Shown piece after piece: positions 21,664 to 39,785 of a stretch of DNA of 45,628 nt. Numbering within the stretch: position 1 is the stretch's first letter; each line of letters begins with the position of its first letter. A program made the translations under genes and the position numbers. Source of the DNA: an uncultured Prochlorococcus sp. (GTDB lineage: Bacteria; Cyanobacteriota; Cyanobacteriia; PCC-6307; Cyanobiaceae); contig CACNCF010000006.1 of NCBI GenBank assembly GCA_902618795.1, positions 1 through 45,628 on the forward strand, in the 5' to 3' direction. The notes under the pieces are model-generated. The model was not told where the DNA came from. It saw only the letters and a program-made list of their open reading frames with translations, and made no database searches.

Positions 21664-21869
21664 TTTAAAGACTTATTTTCTAGTTTTAATTTGCGACTTA
21701 TTAGTCGTGGAGAAATGTCATATTGACTTTCAACGGATTTTCAACTATCGACCAGAACATTTAGTTCTTGTGAAACCGTTATTTATCAATCGATTATACC
21801 TATAACAGCACCACTAATGAGTTGTTAAATGTAGGGTTTTCAACTGGAACGTGATTTCTTCTTGGTTAT

Positions 21870-22016
21870 CTAAGCAAATTGATGATATTTATACATTTTC
21901 CTATAATTATCATGCAATCTTTCTTTTGTTAATTTTCTATTCTTCATTGCATCTCTAATCAAATCTATTTCATGGAAGTTTTGATTGAGAATAGTGAAAG
22001 GAGTAATGAGTTTCAT
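21870..22016 (-). CDS. Small basic protein, 48 aa, strong ribosome-binding site
   Basis: Leftward ORF from ATG at 22016 to TAG at 21870 in the gap between flv3 and flv1. The product has a mixed N-terminus (MKLITPFTILNQNFHEIDL) and a basic helical tail (RDAMKNRKLTKERLHDNYRKM). A strong Shine-Dalgarno AAAGGAGCTCTT ends directly at the ATG, with AGGAG five bases before it. That is unusual in this genome, where most starts lack SD sequences, and is good evidence of translation. Unknown function; same strand as flv1, so possibly cotranscribed. Confidence 0.6.
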   Translation of the reverse strand: MKLITPFTILNQNFHEIDLIRDAMKNRKLTKERLHDNYRKMYKYHQFA

Positions 22017-22090
22017 AAGAGCTCCTTTATCTATACCTATATTGTCCTCCTTCTTACTTGAAATTTATAGGGTATTTTACTCGAGTAATA

Positions 22091-22227
22091 GTGCTTTGTG
22101 GTTGTCACGACTATCATTTTCCATTCATTAGAAGAAGAAATAATTCAGGAGTAAAAAGCACTTCATCGACTTTGTGGACAGCGAGGTGTATACGACTCGA
22201 AGAGGGCAAATAAATGCCCTCTTATAA
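22091..22227 (+). pseudogene. Small gene remnant broken by a frameshift at an A5 run
   Basis: The frame from GTG 22091 reads LCGCHDYHFPFIRRRNNSGV and then an implausible tail to a stop at 22213. One extra A in the AAAAA run at 22153-22157 would join it to a second open frame reading KKHFIDFVDSEVYTTRRGQ INALL, ending at 22227. The base composition here is less A+T rich than in surrounding spacers, as expected for a real gene. I read this as a small gene with a one-base deletion, or a sequencing error or programmed slip. No function known. Confidence 0.4.
22200..22223. repeat. Perfect 8-bp inverted repeat in flv1-flv3 spacer
   Basis: AAGAGGGC, eight-base loop, GCCCTCTT. No U-tract follows on either strand, so a plain intrinsic terminator is unlikely. 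It lies about 77 bp past the flv3 stop on the flv3 transcript and could protect its 3' end. It also overlaps the end of the frameshifted small gene. Confidence 0.55.
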
Positions 22228-22299
22228 ATTAAAAAAATATATTTGCTATTTGAGTCTAGTGATATTAATTGGTCTCAAAACTCTATTTGAAAAGTCTAA

Positions 22300-32729: not shown

Positions 32730-33968
32730 TTGAGCCAGTTAGATTCCAATTGGTCGTTTGTTGATGACAGTAAGGTAACACCTAAGGGGTTTCTTTTTGC
32801 TGGGATATCTGCTGGTTTAAAAGCTTCTAATAAAAAAGATTTAGCACTAATACTCGCTCCAGAAGGAAGTATTTTTAGTGGGATGTTTACCCAATCAATA
32901 GTTCGAGCTTCTTGTGTGGATATTTGTGAGGAAAGGATTAAAACAACTTCAGGTTTTGTAAGAGCAATACTAATTAATTCTGGTCAAGCAAATGCCTGTA
33001 CAGGAAATCTTGGCATTCAACATTTTCTAATTGCTACAGGAAAGATTGCGGAGCTTTTAGGAATAAAAGAAGAAGAAGTTTTAATGTGCTCAACTGGTGT
33101 AATTGGTGTTCCAATAAAAATAAATGATTTAGTAAAAAATTTACCAAATTTAGTTAGTGATTTAAAGGGTAATAATTTTGAAAATGCAGCAGAAGCAATT
33201 TTAACTACTGATTTGACTTTGAAAAAAATGTCAATAGAGACGATTATTCAAGGTAGAAAAATAAAAATAGCAGGATTTGCAAAAGGTTCAGGAATGATTT
33301 ACCCCAACATGGCTACAATGCTTGCTTTTCTAACCTGTGATGCTGGTATTCAAAAAGAAGAATGGGACAAAATGATTGCTATTGCGGTTCAAAAATCTTT
33401 TAATGCAATATCAGTTGATGGAGAGACAAGCACAAATGATTCTTTTATTGGAATAAATGCAGGAGAAAAAATCGAAAAAAGGTTTTTCCCAATTATCCAA
33501 CAAGGGATTGATATTGTATGTCAGAACTTGGCAAAAAATATTGCAAGGGATGGAGAGGGAGCAAATTGTTTATTAGAAGTTTTGGTTCAAGGAGCACAAA
33601 ATACAAATGATGCAATTATGCTCGCGAAATCTATTTGTAATTCTTCTTTGGTAAAAACTGCGATACATGGTTGTGATCCGAATTGGGGACGAATCATTTC
33701 TGCTGCAGGTAATTCTGGAGTTAAATTTAATTTAAATGACGTTGACTTGTATATAGGAAACGCTCAGATTTTGGAAAACGGCAAGTTAAATAAATATGAT
33801 CCACAAAAAGTCACAGACTATATGAAGTCCAGAATGAAAGGTAGATATTTAGTAGATGATATTGTAAAAATTATGATTAATCTAAATTCTGGCGAATCGA
33901 AAGGCATAGCTTGGGGGTGCGATCTTTCTAAAAAATATGTTGAAATAAATAGCGAGTATACGACTTAG
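32730..33968 (+). CDS. argJ: Glutamate N-acetyltransferase / amino-acid N-acetyltransferase ArgJ
   Basis: 412-aa self-cleaving enzyme of arginine synthesis that recycles acetyl groups from N-acetylornithine to glutamate. The autocleavage site is GMIYPNMATMLAF with nucleophile Thr196. TTG 32730 gives the usual N-terminus; C-terminal GCDPNWGRI and WGCDLSKKYVEINSEYTT are standard. The last 21 bases (33948-33968) are repeated at 35591 and 37187, both readable as the same C-terminal peptide, so the gene's 3' end appears to be an integration site whose reading frame is restored by incoming DNA. Confidence 0.96.
   Translation: MSQLDSNWSFVDDSKVTPKGFLFAGISAGLKASNKKDLALILAPEGSIFSGMFTQSIVRASCVDICEERIKTTSGFVRAILINSGQANACTGNLGIQHFLIATGKIAELLGIKEEEVLMCSTGVIGVPIKINDLVKNLPNLVSDLKGNNFENAAEAILTTDLTLKKMSIETIIQGRKIKIAGFAKGSGMIYPNMATMLAFLTCDAGIQKEEWDKMIAIAVQKSFNAISVDGETSTNDSFIGINAGEKIEKRFFPIIQQGIDIVCQNLAKNIARDGEGANCLLEVLVQGAQNTNDAIMLAKSICNSSLVKTAIHGCDPNWGRIISAAGNSGVKFNLNDVDLYIGNAQILENGKLNKYDPQKVTDYMKSRMKGRYLVDDIVKIMINLNSGESKGIAWGCDLSKKYVEINSEYTT
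33948..33968 (+). repeat. argJ 3'-end repeat, copy 1 (intact gene end; att-like)
   Basis: Contains AATAGCGAGTATACGACT plus the TAG stop, encoding NSEYTT. Matches copy 2 at 19 of 21 positions and copy 3 at 16 of the first 20. Confidence 0.8.
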
Positions 33969-34012
33969 TTAAGATCCATTGCAGGGCAAGCGATCTCAGC
34001 GTTTCTAAACTT

Positions 34013-34034
34013 CATAAACCGGTAATAAACCAGT
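34013..34034 (+). repeat. Cassette 1 left arm: tandem 11-bp repeat
   Basis: CATAAACCGGT followed directly by AATAAACCAGT, 45 bp inside copy 1 of the argJ repeat. Preceded by AGCGTTTCTA (33998-34007), which also precedes one right-arm dimer at 35489-35498 as AGCGTTTTTA. Confidence 0.7.
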
Positions 34035-34041
34035 AAATTAA

Positions 34042-35385
34042 TTATTGGAGTTTATAAACTGCTAAATCTTTTGATTTAAGATCTCCAAGTGCTACTTTTT
34101 CTAATCTTTCTAATCTTGCCATAAGTGTTGAAACTGTATTTTGGAGAGTTTCATTTTTAGTAGTAAGAGTTTCTATTTTTGTTTCTAAATTCTTTTTACC
34201 TTTGGAACTTAATTTAATAGGTTCTTTTAGTTGACCCAATTTAAATACAAAACCTGCTTTTATAACCCCGTTATCTAATGTTCCCTCTCCATAAGATTTA
34301 GACCCACCGAAAACATATGAACCACCAGCATTAATATCAACTCTTTCGTTTACTTTAGATGCACAACCAAAACCAACTGCATATCTACTGCTGTAAGCAC
34401 CACTTCCTATTCCACAACTATGTTTAGATTCTTCTGATGTTTGAGGTAGAGCAGTTAATGCTGCTGTCAAAGCAGTTGAACCTGCTATGCCAGATCCTAA
34501 ATTTTTAATATTGGATTTGTTTGTATCTATTTGGCCTTGAACACTAACTCCATTTATTTGAAGATCTGATCCATAAATGTTGAGTGGAATCTTTGATCCA
34601 TTTTCATCTTCTGCCCAAATTGGATGAGCACCATTTAAAACTTCATTTCCAATAACAAATGAATTTTTACCAATGTGTATGTTTCCATCTGAATCTTTTT
34701 TTATTAGGTTTCCTCCAGATACAGAAATTCCTGATTGATTTATTGTTGTTGGGTTAGTTGTTGGACCGATTTCTAAAACATTTTTAGTTGAATCTCCTAT
34801 TCTTGCTGTTGTTGTTGAACCTGATTTAGTGCTAATTAAACTTTGAAGTCCGCTTATATCAGTATCGTTACTAGAGATATTGGAAGCGTTAGATGCTATA
34901 TCGTTATCGTTACTTGAAATATTGGAAGCGTTAGATGCTATATCGTTATCGTTACTAGAAATATTAGAAGAGTTAGTTGTTATATCTGCTGCCTTGCCCC
35001 AACCAGTAGAAGAAATCCTTTGAACAGTTAAGTCTGTACCATTTATTGTGCTGATCGATGAAAATGAATTGTTTGTTAAATCAAATGATATATATTTGTT
35101 TGATGCATCATAGATATAAATTTTATTTTCACTTACATTATGGTGATAAAAAACTTCGTTCTGTTGAGGTGCAAAATTATTGATTAATCCTGAAGTTGCA
35201 TCATTCCACTGGTACGCGCCTAATTCCGATATTGAATTAGAACTATTGCTAAATCTAAATATTTTCACAAAATCATCTCCACCTGTATCTCTGATGTTAA
35301 ACCCGTAATATGGATCTGATTTTACAGAATTGGTAAAACATACTAGAGGCAGAAAAAACAGTAAGTATCTCTCTTTATTTGACAT
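34042..35385 (-). CDS. Trimeric autotransporter-like surface protein (YadA-type anchor), cassette 1
   Basis: 447 aa. Signal peptide at 1-23 (YLLFFLPLVCFTNSVKS-D). A passenger of no known family (24-135) is followed by a stalk of three 14-residue repeats (SSNDNDIASNASNI type, 140-178), then a segment shared with the 35715 protein (GGNLIKKDSDGNIHIGKNS). The C-terminal 85-residue block at about 298-384 (ALTAALTALP...GIGSGAYSSRYAVGFG...GGSYVFGG...KAGFVFKLG) matches the YadA-anchor barrel pattern, with Cys324 and Cys341 inside it. Unusually, a coiled coil (about 395-430) follows the barrel. Predicted to sit in the outer membrane as a trimer with an adhesive or surface role; target unknown. Confidence 0.75.
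   Translation of the reverse strand: MSNKERYLLFFLPLVCFTNSVKSDPYYGFNIRDTGGDDFVKIFRFSNSSNSISELGAYQWNDATSGLINNFAPQQNEVFYHHNVSENKIYIYDASNKYISFDLTNNSFSSISTINGTDLTVQRISSTGWGKAADITTNSSNISSNDNDIASNASNISSNDNDIASNASNISSNDTDISGLQSLISTKSGSTTTARIGDSTKNVLEIGPTTNPTTINQSGISVSGGNLIKKDSDGNIHIGKNSFVIGNEVLNGAHPIWAEDENGSKIPLNIYGSDLQINGVSVQGQIDTNKSNIKNLGSGIAGSTALTAALTALPQTSEESKHSCGIGSGAYSSRYAVGFGCASKVNERVDINAGGSYVFGGSKSYGEGTLDNGVIKAGFVFKLGQLKEPIKLSSKGKKNLETKIETLTTKNETLQNTVSTLMARLERLEKVALGDLKSKDLAVYKLQ
34862..34975 (-). repeat. 42-bp tandem repeats within the stalk of the cassette 1 protein
   Basis: About 2.5 copies of a 42-bp unit, each containing ATATTGGAAGCGTTAGATGC on the + strand, encode the 14-residue stalk repeat. 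Copies are nearly identical and so could change number by slippage, altering stalk length in exact 14-residue steps without frameshift. Confidence 0.8.
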
Positions 35386-35451
35386 AGATTCTAGATTGGT
35401 AGATATCTATATTTTGAAAATTATAAAAAAAATTGTCAGTATTTCGTCTCT

Positions 35452-35473
35452 AATAAACCACTAATAAACCACC
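35452..35473 (+). repeat. Cassette 1 right arm, outer dimer of 11-bp repeats
   Basis: AATAAACCACT followed directly by AATAAACCACC, between the start of the cassette 1 gene and the second argJ repeat. Confidence 0.75.
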
Positions 35474-35512
35474 GCCCTAGTTATGCCAAGCGTTTTTAGA
35501 TATTAAAATTCA

Positions 35513-35534
35513 AATAAACCACCAATAAACCACT
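35513..35534 (+). repeat. Cassette 1 right arm, inner dimer of 11-bp repeats
   Basis: AATAAACCACC then AATAAACCACT, 61 bp after the outer dimer and 57 bp before argJ copy 2. The same strand orientation as the left-arm dimer. Confidence 0.75.
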
Positions 35535-35590
35535 AACTCAATCCGTGAGATCTATTGGTATGACTAATTTTTATACTATATGTCTTTATT

Positions 35591-35611
35591 AATAGCGAAT
35601 ATACGACGTAG
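35591..35611 (+). repeat. argJ 3'-end repeat, copy 2 (displaced remnant; att-like)
   Basis: Contains AATAGCGAATATACGACG plus TAG. The frame read with upstream bases from 35579 gives YVFINSEYTT-stop, against YVEINSEYTT-stop in ArgJ. Differences within the 21 bases are synonymous, so this is a relic of coding sequence, not a chance match. Confidence 0.75.
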
Positions 35612-35679
35612 TTTTTGTGATCTTTTGGATCAATTGATATGACTATATAGAATCCAAAAAAGAATACACACCTTTTGCG

Positions 35680-35701
35680 ACTGTGATAATACTGTGATAA
35701 T
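35680..35701 (+). repeat. Cassette 2 left arm: perfect tandem 11-bp repeat
   Basis: ACTGTGATAAT twice in direct contact, 69 bp inside argJ copy 2 and 13 bp from the stop of the cassette 2 gene. Different sequence but same 11-bp phasing as the cassette 1 arms. Confidence 0.75.
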
Positions 35702-35714
35702 TATTTCTATCTAA

Positions 35715-36815
35715 TTAAGGCAATTTTATAGTTGCTAAATCATTCGATTTTGATTTGCTAAGCGCTATTTTCTCTAGTCGCTCTAATCTTTCTAAAAGTG
35801 ATTTATTTTGAGCAAGAATATTTTCATTATTTTCTTTAAGATTACTAATCTCTTCTTTCAATTCTTTTTTCTCTTTTATGCTTATTAGATTAGTTTTATT
35901 TTCTTTGCCAAACTTAAAAAGAAATCCTGCTCTTGCTGAAAATGTATCTTCAAAATTTCCTTGATATTCTTGTCCAGGGACAAAAGAAGCAGCAGCATTG
36001 AATGCTATTTTTTCATTTACTTTTGAAGCACAACCTCCTGAAAATGCAATATTACCTCCATGTGTCCCTGTGCCTAAACCACATGCAATTTTAGAGTCTG
36101 TTGGAACTGTAGGTAATCCAGAAAGCGCAGCACTTAGTGCACCAACATTATTTATTGACTGCTCTACATCTCTTCCATTTATCAGTAATCTAGTTCCGTT
36201 TGTAATATCTATAGGAATGCTATTTCCATTAGCATCCGTAGCCCACATTTTTTGTAGTCCTCCACTTTCTTGCAATTTCAGTGAATTCTTACCAATACTT
36301 GTTACGCCATCAGAAGATTTTTTGATTATGTTTTCTCCCCCAATAGAAAGTCCCTCTGAAGATAGATCTATATCATTAGTATCTGAGCCAATTTGTATAC
36401 TTCCATCTGAATTTGTCTTCATAACTTGATCACTTCCTATTTTTATTGAGTCATCATCGATTGTAATGACTGAATCTCCTTTACCAAGATCCACAGATCC
36501 ATCACTATTCTCATCAAGAAAAAGACCTATGGCTGCAGTACACGCTTTATTCAGGGCATCACCTGCATTTCCTCCCATAGCACTACCATTTCCAAAAGGG
36601 TTTGAACAACTCGTATCATTATTGAATTTAAATGCTCCCCCATTTGCATTGGAGTAACTACGATCAAAGAGAAGATCTTCATCAACTGAACTTGTTTTAA
36701 CCGTGACGATAGTTCCTGCAGGAACTGTTACGTCCGCTTTAGCGTTATGAGAGGTGAAAATTGCCAAAATTACAGGAGTAAGTAATAGTTTCTTTGATAG
36801 TTTTTTCATATTCAT
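35715..36815 (-). CDS. Trimeric autotransporter-like surface protein (YadA-type anchor), cassette 2
   Basis: 366 aa, paralogue of the cassette 1 protein in its C-terminal half. Signal peptide 1-27 (LLLTPVILAIFTSHNAKA-D). The head includes a calcium-loop-like DENSDGSVDLGKGD (101-114) and two or three short SDGSIQIGSD-type repeats. The block from residue 159 (GGENIIKKSSDG...SIGKNS) to the barrel (about 225-303; ALSAALSGLP, GLGTGTHGG, ARAGFLFKFG) parallels cassette 1, including Cys245 and Cys262. The coiled coil (about 310-350) and ending LERLEKIAL..KSNDLATIKL also match. Heads are unrelated, so the pair differ in presumed binding specificity. Confidence 0.75.
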   Translation of the reverse strand: MNMKKLSKKLLLTPVILAIFTSHNAKADVTVPAGTIVTVKTSSVDEDLLFDRSYSNANGGAFKFNNDTSCSNPFGNGSAMGGNAGDALNKACTAAIGLFLDENSDGSVDLGKGDSVITIDDDSIKIGSDQVMKTNSDGSIQIGSDTNDIDLSSEGLSIGGENIIKKSSDGVTSIGKNSLKLQESGGLQKMWATDANGNSIPIDITNGTRLLINGRDVEQSINNVGALSAALSGLPTVPTDSKIACGLGTGTHGGNIAFSGGCASKVNEKIAFNAAASFVPGQEYQGNFEDTFSARAGFLFKFGKENKTNLISIKEKKELKEEISNLKENNENILAQNKSLLERLERLEKIALSKSKSNDLATIKLP

Positions 36816-36999
36816 TAAAAATTTTTCAAAAATATAAATGAAATTTATATTTAATGGGTATTTAAAATTACATTAAAATTTATCTCTTAATAAAAAGTTC
36901 AGATACTAGATTTCTATTATTTTTTCATTTCAAACTTAGTAGGAAATTCCCATCCCCCCTCTCATTAATGAATACTTTCCTTTGGTATTAATGTGTTTA

Positions 37000-37027
37000 T
37001 TCTGTGATTAATAATAAGATCACAGAA
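37000..37027. repeat. Inverted repeat TTCTGTGAT/ATCACAGAA
   Basis: Perfect 9-bp arms with a 10-base spacer. The arm contains the CTGTGAT core also found in the cassette 2 direct repeats, so it may be an inverted pair of the same protein's binding site. Confidence 0.65.
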
Positions 37028-37069
37028 ATTATCCTAATACTTTCAATGGTTTTTATTTAAAAATCTAAA

Positions 37070-37112
37070 ACTGTGATTATTATTTTGCCGACTGTGATTA
37101 TGGTGTGATTAT
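37070..37112 (+). repeat. Cassette 2 right arm: three phased 11-bp repeats
   Basis: ACTGTGATTAT at 37070-37080, again at 37091-37101, and GGTGTGATTAT at 37102-37112. Spacing is 21 then 11 bp, about two and one helical turns, so all lie on one face of the DNA. Confidence 0.75.
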
Positions 37113-37186
37113 TTTCTAAAAACTTGCTCTAGTGATACTAATCGATTACAGCAAGGTGTATATACTATTTGCTCAAGGTGGAAATT

Positions 37187-37207
37187 AATAACGAACATAC
37201 TACTTAA
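37187..37207 (+). repeat. argJ 3'-end repeat, copy 3 (oldest displaced remnant; att-like)
   Basis: AATAACGAACATACTACT plus TAA. With upstream bases from 37178 it reads KVEINNEHTT-stop, against YVEINSEYTT-stop in ArgJ. It overlaps the stop codon of the leftward 37200 gene, suggesting that argJ originally ended here, convergent with that gene. Confidence 0.7.
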
Positions 37208-37442
37208 GTTTTAGTAAATCTAATGGTAGATATTCATTCATATAAAGAAAAAGTATTGTTAAAGTTCCAATTACAGAGCCTATAAAACCTCCAAATAAAT
37301 TTACTAACAATCCAGATTGTCTAATTATTGCTTCTTCCTTTTTTTCTTCTTCAAAATTTGGAGAATCAACTACTTTTAAGCGCTGATTGGTTGTTGGTTG
37401 TTTAAGTTGTTGGTGTCGGATGAGGGCTTCGAAATCAGGCAT
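37200..37442 (-). CDS. Small single-pass membrane protein overlapping parA
   Basis: 80 aa from ATG 37442 (an 88-aa version starts at 37466). Basic/polar N-terminus (MPDFEALIRHQQLKQ), an acidic-lysine stretch, then one hydrophobic segment LLVNLFGGFIGSVIGTLTILFL (about 49-70) and a short tail. The first 67 bases overlap the 3' end of parA in another frame, an unusually long same-strand overlap suggesting coupled translation. Function unknown; being an anchor for the ParA ATPase is a positional guess. The stop lies inside the third argJ-end repeat. Confidence 0.55.
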   Translation of the reverse strand: MPDFEALIRHQQLKQPTTNQRLKVVDSPNFEEEKKEEAIIRQSGLLVNLFGGFIGSVIGTLTILFLYMNEYLPLDLLKLK

Positions 37443-38047
37443 GGAATTTGTGAGGCAATTGAACAATAAGCAGACCAGCCCGTCATTCGACGAGGATCTG
37501 ATCTACCTAAATCGTCTACAGCTTCAAATACAGCATTGCCTGAGGCTTCTGCTTTATCAAATGCTGAAAGTAAGGGTATAAATGTATCAAAAACATATAA
37601 ACCAAAATTTTTTAGAGCTGCTTTGGCTTGTTGCGCTGCTTTTTGCTGTCTAAAATCAACTTTTACTATTACTACAGCATGGTTAACTTTTAAGTTGCTT
37701 AATAAATTAGCTAGTTCAACAGTTAATTCTACTGATCTTGCTTTTGCAGTTGTAGGTAAGACAACTAAATCTGACCCATAAGCTAAGTGTTTAAGTTCTT
37801 CTTGATCACTGCTAGCCTGGCCATCAGTTATTACAATTTCTGATGATCTTGATGCTTTAGCAGCTGAACTGACGGGGAAAACTGGAAATGGAAGATTGCC
37901 TCTTGATGCGTATGCTAAAGCAGATCTATTCTTGTCGGCATCGACTATGCAAACTTTTTTACCTTCAGAATGCCAAACACTTGCAAGGTGAATACTTGTA
38001 CAGGTCTTGGCCACCCCCCCTTTTTGTCCGCAAACGGTAATGAACAA
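37376..38047 (-). CDS. Orphan ParA/MinD-family ATPase
   Basis: 223 aa. Deviant Walker A GQKGGVAKT with the signature first Lys, so ParA family. VCIVDADKNRSA is the ParA motif 2 region, and IVITDGQASSD stands where most ParAs have a D-x-P-P Walker B, so this is an atypical member. No ParB gene or parS-like centromere cluster is seen beside it. Plasmid-type ParAs of this size act in partition or protein positioning. It overlaps the small membrane gene at its 3' end and borders the cassette region. Role uncertain. Confidence 0.85.
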   Translation of the reverse strand: MFITVCGQKGGVAKTCTSIHLASVWHSEGKKVCIVDADKNRSALAYASRGNLPFPVFPVSSAAKASRSSEIVITDGQASSDQEELKHLAYGSDLVVLPTTAKARSVELTVELANLLSNLKVNHAVVIVKVDFRQQKAAQQAKAALKNFGLYVFDTFIPLLSAFDKAEASGNAVFEAVDDLGRSDPRRMTGWSAYCSIASQIPCLISKPSSDTNNLNNQQPISA

Positions 38048-39305: not shown

Positions 39306-39462
39306 TATGCAGGATTTGGGTTTCTAATAAGATAAATTAATTTACAATCAATCTTCTCAGTATTTATACTCATAAAATTAAAAATTTTGTTTTTAATACA
39401 AGCAACTGCAGCAATATTTACACTCCAATAAATTATCCACTACAACTTTTTATTTATTTAAT

Positions 39463-39735
39463 AAAGTGGAGTCCTTCCAGACTCCGTGCATCATTTGGTT
39501 GATAAGGCTGATATGACCCCATCTCCTTAAGGATCAAGCAGCAACTGGTGCTGTTTGACGGGAGAAACTAACGATTTTGTTAGCATTTGTGTTTTTGCTC
39601 TAACCGAGCCGGCTTCAGTCACCTTCCTTATGCCCCGTCGAAACCATTACAACCCCAAATAGTGGAGTTGAGCGGAATCGAACCGCTGTCCGAAACATCG
39701 GTTGAGATCACCTAGTCCAATTGGACATTTATATT
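39463..39735 (-). ncRNA. ssrA: tmRNA, permuted two-piece form
   Basis: Rescues stalled ribosomes. On the minus strand the acceptor half comes first: a TPsiC arm with GGTTCGATTCC and 3' stem CAACTCC with discriminator A at 39663. Six bases later the coding half starts at 39656 with GGGGTTGTAATGGTTTCGACG, the universal tmRNA 5' signature; GGGGTTG pairs with CAACTCC. This order (3' half before 5' half) is the circular permutation known in marine picocyanobacteria. CCA is not encoded: the DNA reads CTA after the discriminator. A 6-bp hairpin (39468-39485) closes the coding half. Outer ends are approximate. Confidence 0.93.
39534..39584 (-). other. tmRNA tag peptide reading frame
   Basis: Resume codon GCT then AAC..., encoding ANKIVSFSRQTAPVAA and TGA stop. 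The hydrophobic Ala-Ala end is a typical degradation signal, and the tag is the one I recall for Prochlorococcus. Confidence 0.92.
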
Positions 39736-39785
39736 CTGACAGGCAAAATGAGTATTGAATAGTTTTTTTTAAGTTTTTATCGTAT

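Follow-up and report, generated by a model that had tools for sequence, protein, structure and literature searches.

We propose that, in all likelihood, the 3′ end of argJ is the chromosomal attachment site (attB) of tyrosine-recombinase integrative elements in picocyanobacteria, and that the integrases of these elements would also move integrase-less cassettes in trans. The window, a stretch of 45,628 nucleotides from an uncultured Prochlorococcus sp. (assembly GCA_902618795.1), is contig CACNCF010000006.1 of a genome that is 71.8% complete. It holds the argJ end three times, and these copies form the junctions of two cassettes in tandem, with one YadA-like gene each. The copies and their surroundings are the following:

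32730..33968, + strand: argJ (Pfam ArgJ, E 3.3e-129), whose 3′ end is the attachment site
33948..33968, + strand: copy 1, the live argJ end (left junction, attL), core AATAGCGAGTATAC plus the element-supplied GACTTAG
35591..35611, + strand: copy 2, the junction between both cassettes, core AATAGCGAATATAC plus GACGTAG
37187..37207, + strand: copy 3, the displaced original argJ end (right junction, attR), which carries TACTTAA
37200..37466, − strand: orf88, the far flank, convergent with argJ at empty sites
37376..38047, − strand: parA-like gene (PF01656, E 9e-13), conserved far flank outside the element

An earlier note on this DNA had placed argJ-end copies at 33948, 35591 and 37187. They are indeed there, all on the plus strand and far beyond chance: the consensus AATAGCGAATATACNACNTRR, with up to 3 mismatches allowed, has exactly three matches in the window against 0.05 expected, and three were reached in 0 of 100 shuffles. 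Copies 1 and 2 are identical at 19/21 positions, as that note had counted; its figure of 16/20 for copy 3 refers to the first 20 bases, the full comparison with copy 1 giving 16/21. The translations it gave (INSEYTT, INSEYTT and INNEHTT, each followed by a stop) are correct, and the differences between copies 1 and 2 are synonymous, since both sit at third codon positions. The extra copies can be aligned with argJ ends.

The comparison across relatives had been chosen beforehand as the test on which integration would stand or fall. Genomes of the genus yielded an argJ match in 168 of 200, and 146 loci were used (145 downstream regions and the window), 22 having been left out, including fragments and contig ends. 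Integration survives this test, with 62/146 loci empty and 84/146 occupied. Empty, single-unit, multi-unit and alternative-cargo sites all follow the same argJ end, which supports the site-specific integration that had been read from the window. At the empty sites argJ is directly convergent with orf88-parA; the alignment of orf88 enters the argJ stop in 39/62 of them and stops 23–29 bases short in 23. Both flanks are present in 80 occupied loci, where the inserts measure 151 to 9342 bp. Four loci (L126, L143, L196 and L215) have no parA in reach; these were counted as occupied because the empty-site sequence is absent after argJ, and were left out of the insert lengths. The occupied loci contain 133 tandem units in total: one unit in 48 loci, two in 26, three in 7 and four in 3. 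The median unit length is 1615 bp, with 87/133 between 800 and 2000 bp. Counting non-overlapping open reading frames (ORFs) of at least 100 aa, 87/133 units have exactly one, 16 have none and 30 have two to seven.

The junctions are marked by the 14-bp core AATAGCGAATATAC. When the left and right junctions of the 133 units are compared, identity ranges from 62 to 98% among the core positions and is mostly low elsewhere, apart from some similar positions directly upstream; the attachment halves switch at the core. A direct-repeat core is present at both borders and an empty attB is found in relatives, as is expected of a tyrosine-recombinase element. In the element-supplied part the third codon positions and the stop vary, and positions 14, 17, 19 and 20 match in 34–77%. 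Positions 15, 16 and 18 of the argJ end match in 89–99%, a conservation that is expected if the sequence must restore Thr-Thr-stop of ArgJ. The element provides the variable bases of the last codons and the stop, giving back an ArgJ that ends in YTT. The empty-site end is TACTTAA in 59/62 loci and TACTTGA in 3/62, and the live argJ end differs from every empty-site form in 79/84 occupied loci; in occupied loci an empty-site-like form is found on the far side, beside orf88. Since 62/62 empty sites have one of these two forms and 79/84 occupied live ends differ, copies 1 and 2 in the window are element-supplied and copy 3 is the original. The earlier proposal of two successive insertions, each with a new argJ end, therefore holds for copies 1 and 2, while copy 3 is the old end, and the order of the insertions is unreadable from the final arrangement.

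We suggest that strand exchange takes place within the 14-bp core, that the element brings the post-core bases NACNTRR and that the old argJ end is displaced downstream. Because these bases follow the core, the ArgJ C-terminus would be rebuilt at each insertion, and because each insertion would leave fresh cores, units would stack in tandem. The argJ end would then work like a tRNA-type attB moved to the end of a protein-coding gene. As to a tRNA gene as target, the window shows only a transfer-messenger RNA gene (39443-39752), near the site but at none of the cassette junctions.

The argJ-end pattern is close to unique to argJ genome-wide. A weight matrix of the argJ end gave 0 matches above 9 bits in 1,758,406 positions outside inserts (first 117 loci with parA in reach). 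Within the inserts it picks out internal copies, and one weak match above 9 bits there (L127) points the opposite way. In 25 genus genomes the pattern with at most 1 mismatch had 40 matches, 34 of them at or a few kb from a known argJ end, 1 elsewhere (G007:C28) and 5 unplaced relative to argJ (G011, G021, G022); a reversed control pattern had 3 matches in the same genomes.

The two cassettes of the window are built as follows:

33969..35590, no strand: cassette 1, 1622 bp, class A ends
34014..34033, no strand: left arm-like tandem repeat of cassette 1, ATAAACCGGT AATAAACCAG
34042..35385, − strand: 447-aa YadA-anchor protein of cassette 1 (PF03895, E 1.5e-7, above the cut-off), 3′ end facing argJ
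35452..35472, no strand: right arm-like tandem repeat of cassette 1, pair 1, repeat family D2
35513..35533, no strand: right arm-like tandem repeat of cassette 1, pair 2, repeat family D2
35612..37186, no strand: cassette 2, 1575 bp, class B ends
35616..35622, + strand: core-proximal arm-like site TGTGATC (+4) of cassette 2, in the same position in 6/7 clade I integrase elements
35682..35698, + strand: left arm-like pair TGTGAT of cassette 2, 11 bp apart, at +70 and +81
35715..36815, − strand: 366-aa YadA-anchor protein of cassette 2 (PF03895, E 3.8e-7, above the cut-off), 3′ end facing argJ
37072..37109, + strand: right arm-like sites TGTGAT of cassette 2, at 37072, 37093 and 37104

Each cassette has one large minus-strand ORF with a YadA membrane anchor, and YadA-like proteins are the sole products found. 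A simple duplication of YadA genes was considered and is ruled out, because the ends of the cassettes differ and a cassette 1-like unit stands alone in L034. Neither window cassette has an integrase; integrases are found in rarer relatives at the same site.

An integrase model built from nine integrases, including three taken from argJ inserts, was run on 358 ORFs of at least 60 aa. It detected an integrase in only 3/133 units (L190, L191 and L060) and none in 130/133. In L190 and L191 the integrase directly adjoins attL, and in L060 it adjoins attR. A family-wide search with the L190/L191 integrase pair gave matches in 57/350 genomes. Of 25 loci returned, 19 have an argJ-end core beside the integrase, 5 of them nearest to L190/L191 and 14 nearest to L060, in 8 genera besides that of the window; in 4 of the 5 L190/L191-like loci the integrase comes directly after argJ itself. 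The 6/25 loci without the core hold another clade or a fragment. Here a poor 2-mismatch match in L322 was not counted, and L313 and L324 were included in spite of 2 differences, those of L324 including unread bases. Named genomes, some of them already in this set, were scanned as well, and the core lay within ~0.5 kb of the integrase in 11/14 loci. The integrases beside argJ-end cores elsewhere in the family belong to two divergent clades of tyrosine integrases. Residues R268, K305, R394 and Y426 (L190 numbering) are invariant in 15/15 aligned integrases, including those of the three integrase-bearing units, and are putatively the catalytic R-K-R-Y of tyrosine recombinases; the two window cassettes have no such protein. 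The predicted structure of one integrase (mean predicted local distance difference test score 73.2) matches, among others, the Tn1549 integrase (6en0, E 1.6e-9) and lambda integrase (5j0n, 5.5e-8).

One unit (L282) retains only the first ~85–100 codons of a clade I integrase beside the core, and therefore full elements can decay into integrase-less ones. Besides its integrase, the element in L190 (L190:6033-10120) codes for a serine resolvase, for a protein that combines ParB-N and DNA methylase domains, and for two proteins of 281 and 81 aa that have no clear family. Serine resolvase proteins occur in both L190 and L191, and a sequence search with the two gave no relative in other units. At L191:10966-12205 a frameshift, in the gene or in the assembly, breaks argJ of genome G068 into two overlapping ORFs of 246 and 175 aa.

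A viral origin of the system was tried as well and rejected. When viral contigs were searched for one of the integrases, 15 pattern stretches and no relative came up, and a scan of viral contigs for the core returned 3 stretches, unlike argJ, orf88, parA, reductase, the YadA proteins and four integrases, which were taken as chance. Two integrases compared with phage records had no match at 1e-5.

Integrases related to those at argJ also stand directly after a flavodiiron-like gene, presumably flv, ~11 kb upstream of argJ in L193, L195, L234 and L238. In L193 the flv end is found again after 5.5 kb (L193:10545-16100; 5/24 mismatches), and a weaker copy is seen in L195 (7/24). It is possible that the flv end is a second coding-gene attachment site. 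In the window, 21664-22299 is a 636-bp gap between two flv genes, where relatives carry flv-site elements; no flv-end copy was found in the 5.5-kb window stretch searched, the best having 9/24 mismatches.

The argJ end is also repeated outside the genus. In 39 hand-chosen loci of other genera it recurs downstream (at most 6 mismatches in 24) in 12; among shuffles, 2/156 reached 6 and none fewer. L273 and L274 had been picked for a hinted second end, the only anchor of L274 is a 21-aa match to the ArgJ end, and L312, an empty site of the window's own genus, is excluded. L277, L278, L282, L288 and L299 have three to five cores when the live end is counted. In L273 (1296-3440) the argJ end is repeated without mismatch over 24 nt 2.1 kb downstream, and 22 residues of the ArgJ C-terminus show similarity; this duplication may be of a different kind.

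The cassettes carry tandem repeats at both ends, mostly 11–12 bp apart and laid out like lambda-type arm sites. A 9-mer is shared between a unit's own ends in 97/124 units, against a mean of 54.7 and a maximum of 69 in 500 permutations and 30 in a mid-unit control. We propose that these repeats are putative arm sites, which the integrase N-terminus would bind, and that the short integrase-less cassettes would keep an attP-like set of ends, the core plus tandem repeats on both sides. All 28/28 units with a core-proximal TGTGA have a pair 10–13 bp apart further in, and such a pair is found in 7/101 units without it. Clade I integrases stand beside attL with TGTGAT repeats, and clade II integrases beside attR with other repeats. 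In seven clade I integrase elements (L313-L317, L231 = G174 and L230 = G068), TGTGA lies at +4 in 6/7, and the pair, 11 bp apart, lies at about +70/+82 in 5/7 and further in, at +91/+102 and +132/+143, in the remaining two. A rule-based sorting of the 133 units by arm sites gave 28 in group I, 70 in group II, 31 unclassified and 4 too short. Classes A-H are repeats read by eye, and BLAST of the unit ends at E 1e-4 merged most of them, among the matches listed.

On this basis, window cassette 2 would fit clade I. For cassette 1, clade II is the probable fit, a weaker assignment from ATAAACCAC repeats, read by eye, that are like those beside clade II integrases; the link of classes A and C-G to clade II, through similar repeats read by eye, is likewise weak. 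Matched ends between a cassette and a full element are clearest in the integrase-less class H cassette L095, which shares the layout of the L190 element and matches its right end at 104 of the last 130 and 56 of the last 60 bases. The right ends of L207 (90/130), L105 (86/130) and L202 (75/130) were also compared with L190, other units having a mean of 41/130 and a maximum of 83. Given these values, the L095 match is strong and the other three are modest.

The sites turn over between close relatives. Loci L049 (1303-bp insert) and L052 (849-bp insert) have argJ genes 99.3% identical, and argJ of the empty L063 is 99.26% identical to both. In L042, the first unit resembles the single unit of L120 (96.3%) and a unit of L150 (91.8%), and the second unit is 98.2% like the second unit of L048, which follows a different first unit. 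These cases bear on the view that the cassettes are decayed, immobile remnants resembling cis-mobilizable elements (CIMEs) and are moved only via homologous recombination between conserved flanks. The truncated integrase of L282 and the conserved flanks speak for it, as do 25/41 pairs whose cassettes are no more similar than their argJ genes (an argJ value was lacking for 10 of 51 cassette pairs). But the cassettes are compact with matched ends, the same cassette is found alone and within a different array (L120, L042, L150), and in 16/41 pairs the cassette is more alike than argJ, in some far more, as with 92.6% against 80.6% in L120 and L150. We hold exclusive decay to be unlikely, though a view worth keeping; in addition to site-specific integration, recombination between homologous flanks and the gradual decay of full elements probably play a part.

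The rarity of site-linked integrases favours a further candidate, a conserved 389-aa host tyrosine recombinase that would move the cassettes as Xer does for integrative mobile elements exploiting Xer (IMEX elements). PF00589 matches are present in 176/200 genus genomes, with open frames of ~389 aa recurring among the matches listed, and the window genome has a 389-aa recombinase 90–96% identical to two others compared. An example is L001:1426-2595 on the minus strand, apparently widespread in the genus among the matches listed; the gene next to this recombinase is, we take it, cobO. Several distinct arm classes are nevertheless ill-suited to one recombinase, dedicated integrases of two clades occur at the argJ site across genera, and the 389-aa protein had no match to the argJ-site integrases in the comparison made. 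Movement by this host enzyme thus seems improbable to us.

The tandem, mostly single-ORF, integrase-less cassettes, with the longest ORF on the minus strand in 84/127 units, also recall an integron-like system, where attC-type recombination would act on cassettes folded as single strands. Yet the modelled circle junctions of 129 units fold like shuffles (mean z −0.16 and −0.56 on one strand, 0.47 and −0.45 on the other), an integrase is found in 3/133 units, and long direct repeats are present instead. We give folded single-strand recombination hardly any weight. In a general fold comparison, the one protein folded has Tn1549 and lambda integrases as its top matches and the integron integrase 2a3v at rank 11.

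We return to duplex integration at argJ, with cassettes most likely moved in trans by integrases from rarer full elements at the same site. Mobilisation in trans would be the simplest account of the shared core and the comparable ends, and the cassettes may also spread between cells. Several points weigh on the other side. Excision and transfer were not observed, it is we who infer the trans-action of the integrases, and homologous recombination in the conserved flanks could move inserts as well; the 25/41 pairs above also count on this side. The helper is rarely present at the site, since only 3/133 units carry an integrase, and in the window genome, at its 71.8% completeness, the single PF00589 integrase seen is the 389-aa one, with no member of the argJ clades. 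Read by eye, class A and class B repeats are both absent from the three integrase-bearing units of the genus; 31 of the 129 sortable units are in no arm group; and the class H cassettes L202 and L105 match L190 (75 and 86/130) about as well as the best other unit (83). With less assurance, we lean towards a broader picture, a family-wide, integron-like cassette economy on duplex attachment sites, in which mostly single-gene, attP-ended cassettes without recombinase would fall into arm-repeat compatibility groups, served in trans by the two clades of argJ integrases, with argJ rebuilt each time.

Cargo was surveyed by clustering 222 ORFs of at least 50 aa from the first 67 occupied loci, and the Pfam and PADLOC scan covered cluster representatives. 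A cluster of 45 holds both YadA proteins of the window. Other representatives include a TPR, PD-(D/E)XK and trypsin-like protein, SRA-HNH, a C5 methylase, PEBP, Mrr-helicase proteins resembling type IIG restriction enzymes, a thiamine-binding protein and an outer membrane beta-barrel protein; no conjugation family was found among the Pfam-scanned representatives. A recurring multi-gene cassette (L127, L136, L147 and others) has ORFs of 55, 60, 62 and 97 aa, the last being the thiamine-binding protein (PF01910). L150:2897-3793 and four related ORFs encode a DnaB C-terminal helicase domain and nothing else (~297 aa; the Pfam scan covered one of these five ORFs), possibly a decoy or defence gene. 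If our proposal is true, streamlined ocean cyanobacteria would have a concrete route for exchanging surface proteins as well as restriction- or defence-like genes at a single fixed position, which is occupied in 84/146 loci examined. Empty, single and stacked sites coexist with integrase-less and integrase-bearing elements, and therefore trans mobility is directly testable.

Among known systems, the staphylococcal cassette chromosome (SCC) inserts in the 3′ end of rlmH/orfX, restores the gene end, forms tandem composite islands and has some members without recombinase; it is mobilised by serine Ccr recombinases. The argJ elements are alike in using the 3′ end of a conserved coding gene as target, in restoring it, in their tandem units and in their members without recombinase. 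They differ in the use of argJ instead of rlmH, in tyrosine integrases instead of Ccr and in units with a median of ~1.6 kb.

CIMEs, as described in PMC5704250, are flanked by attachment sites, lack an integrase and are stacked in tandem with integrative and conjugative or integrative and mobilizable elements (ICEs/IMEs) of the same site specificity. The argJ units are likewise flanked by attachment sites, and 130/133 have no detected integrase, transfer genes having been checked in the Pfam-scanned representatives. As to derivation from an ICE or IME, one relic integrase (L282) is seen and no conjugation family appears in those representatives. As a difference from CIMEs, integrase-less units are here the great majority (130/133), they are mostly 0.8–2 kb (87/133), and several classes have attP-like repeats at both ends. 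Clusters of attC sites lacking integron-integrases (CALINs; PMC11389934) are arrays of small integron cassettes that need an integrase in trans, and the argJ arrays resemble them as arrays of small cassettes without their own integrase. They differ from integrons and CALINs in that an attC-like hairpin fold is absent (129 modelled junctions), in having a duplex core with arm-like repeats, and in docking at the end of a protein-coding gene.

The tycheposons of Prochlorococcus, as described second-hand in PMC10872708, are tyrosine-recombinase cargo islands of 4–200 kb bordered by tRNA genes (7 described). On that account, both are islands of tyrosine-recombinase type that carry cargo and insert at specific sites in the same genus, and the argJ elements differ in their site, in a size of 0.15–9.3 kb where measured and in mostly having no recombinase. 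For a Prochlorococcus phage, a siphovirus paper proposes a tRNA-Met-related site (PMC2784084). The earlier note had called the use of argJ unusual and knew of no description, and no report of argJ as an integration site was found in searches of open PMC papers that named argJ, a scope that leaves aside the original tycheposon description and subscription journals; in excerpts from the Prochlorococcus literature, argJ is discussed for small RNA targets and protein levels. The argJ site, the mostly single-gene cassettes with attP-like ends and their prevalence appear to be new, the original tycheposon description being outside this comparison. The logic of the system is known from elsewhere: SCC at orfX is nearest in the type of site, and CIME accretion and CALINs are nearest in logic.

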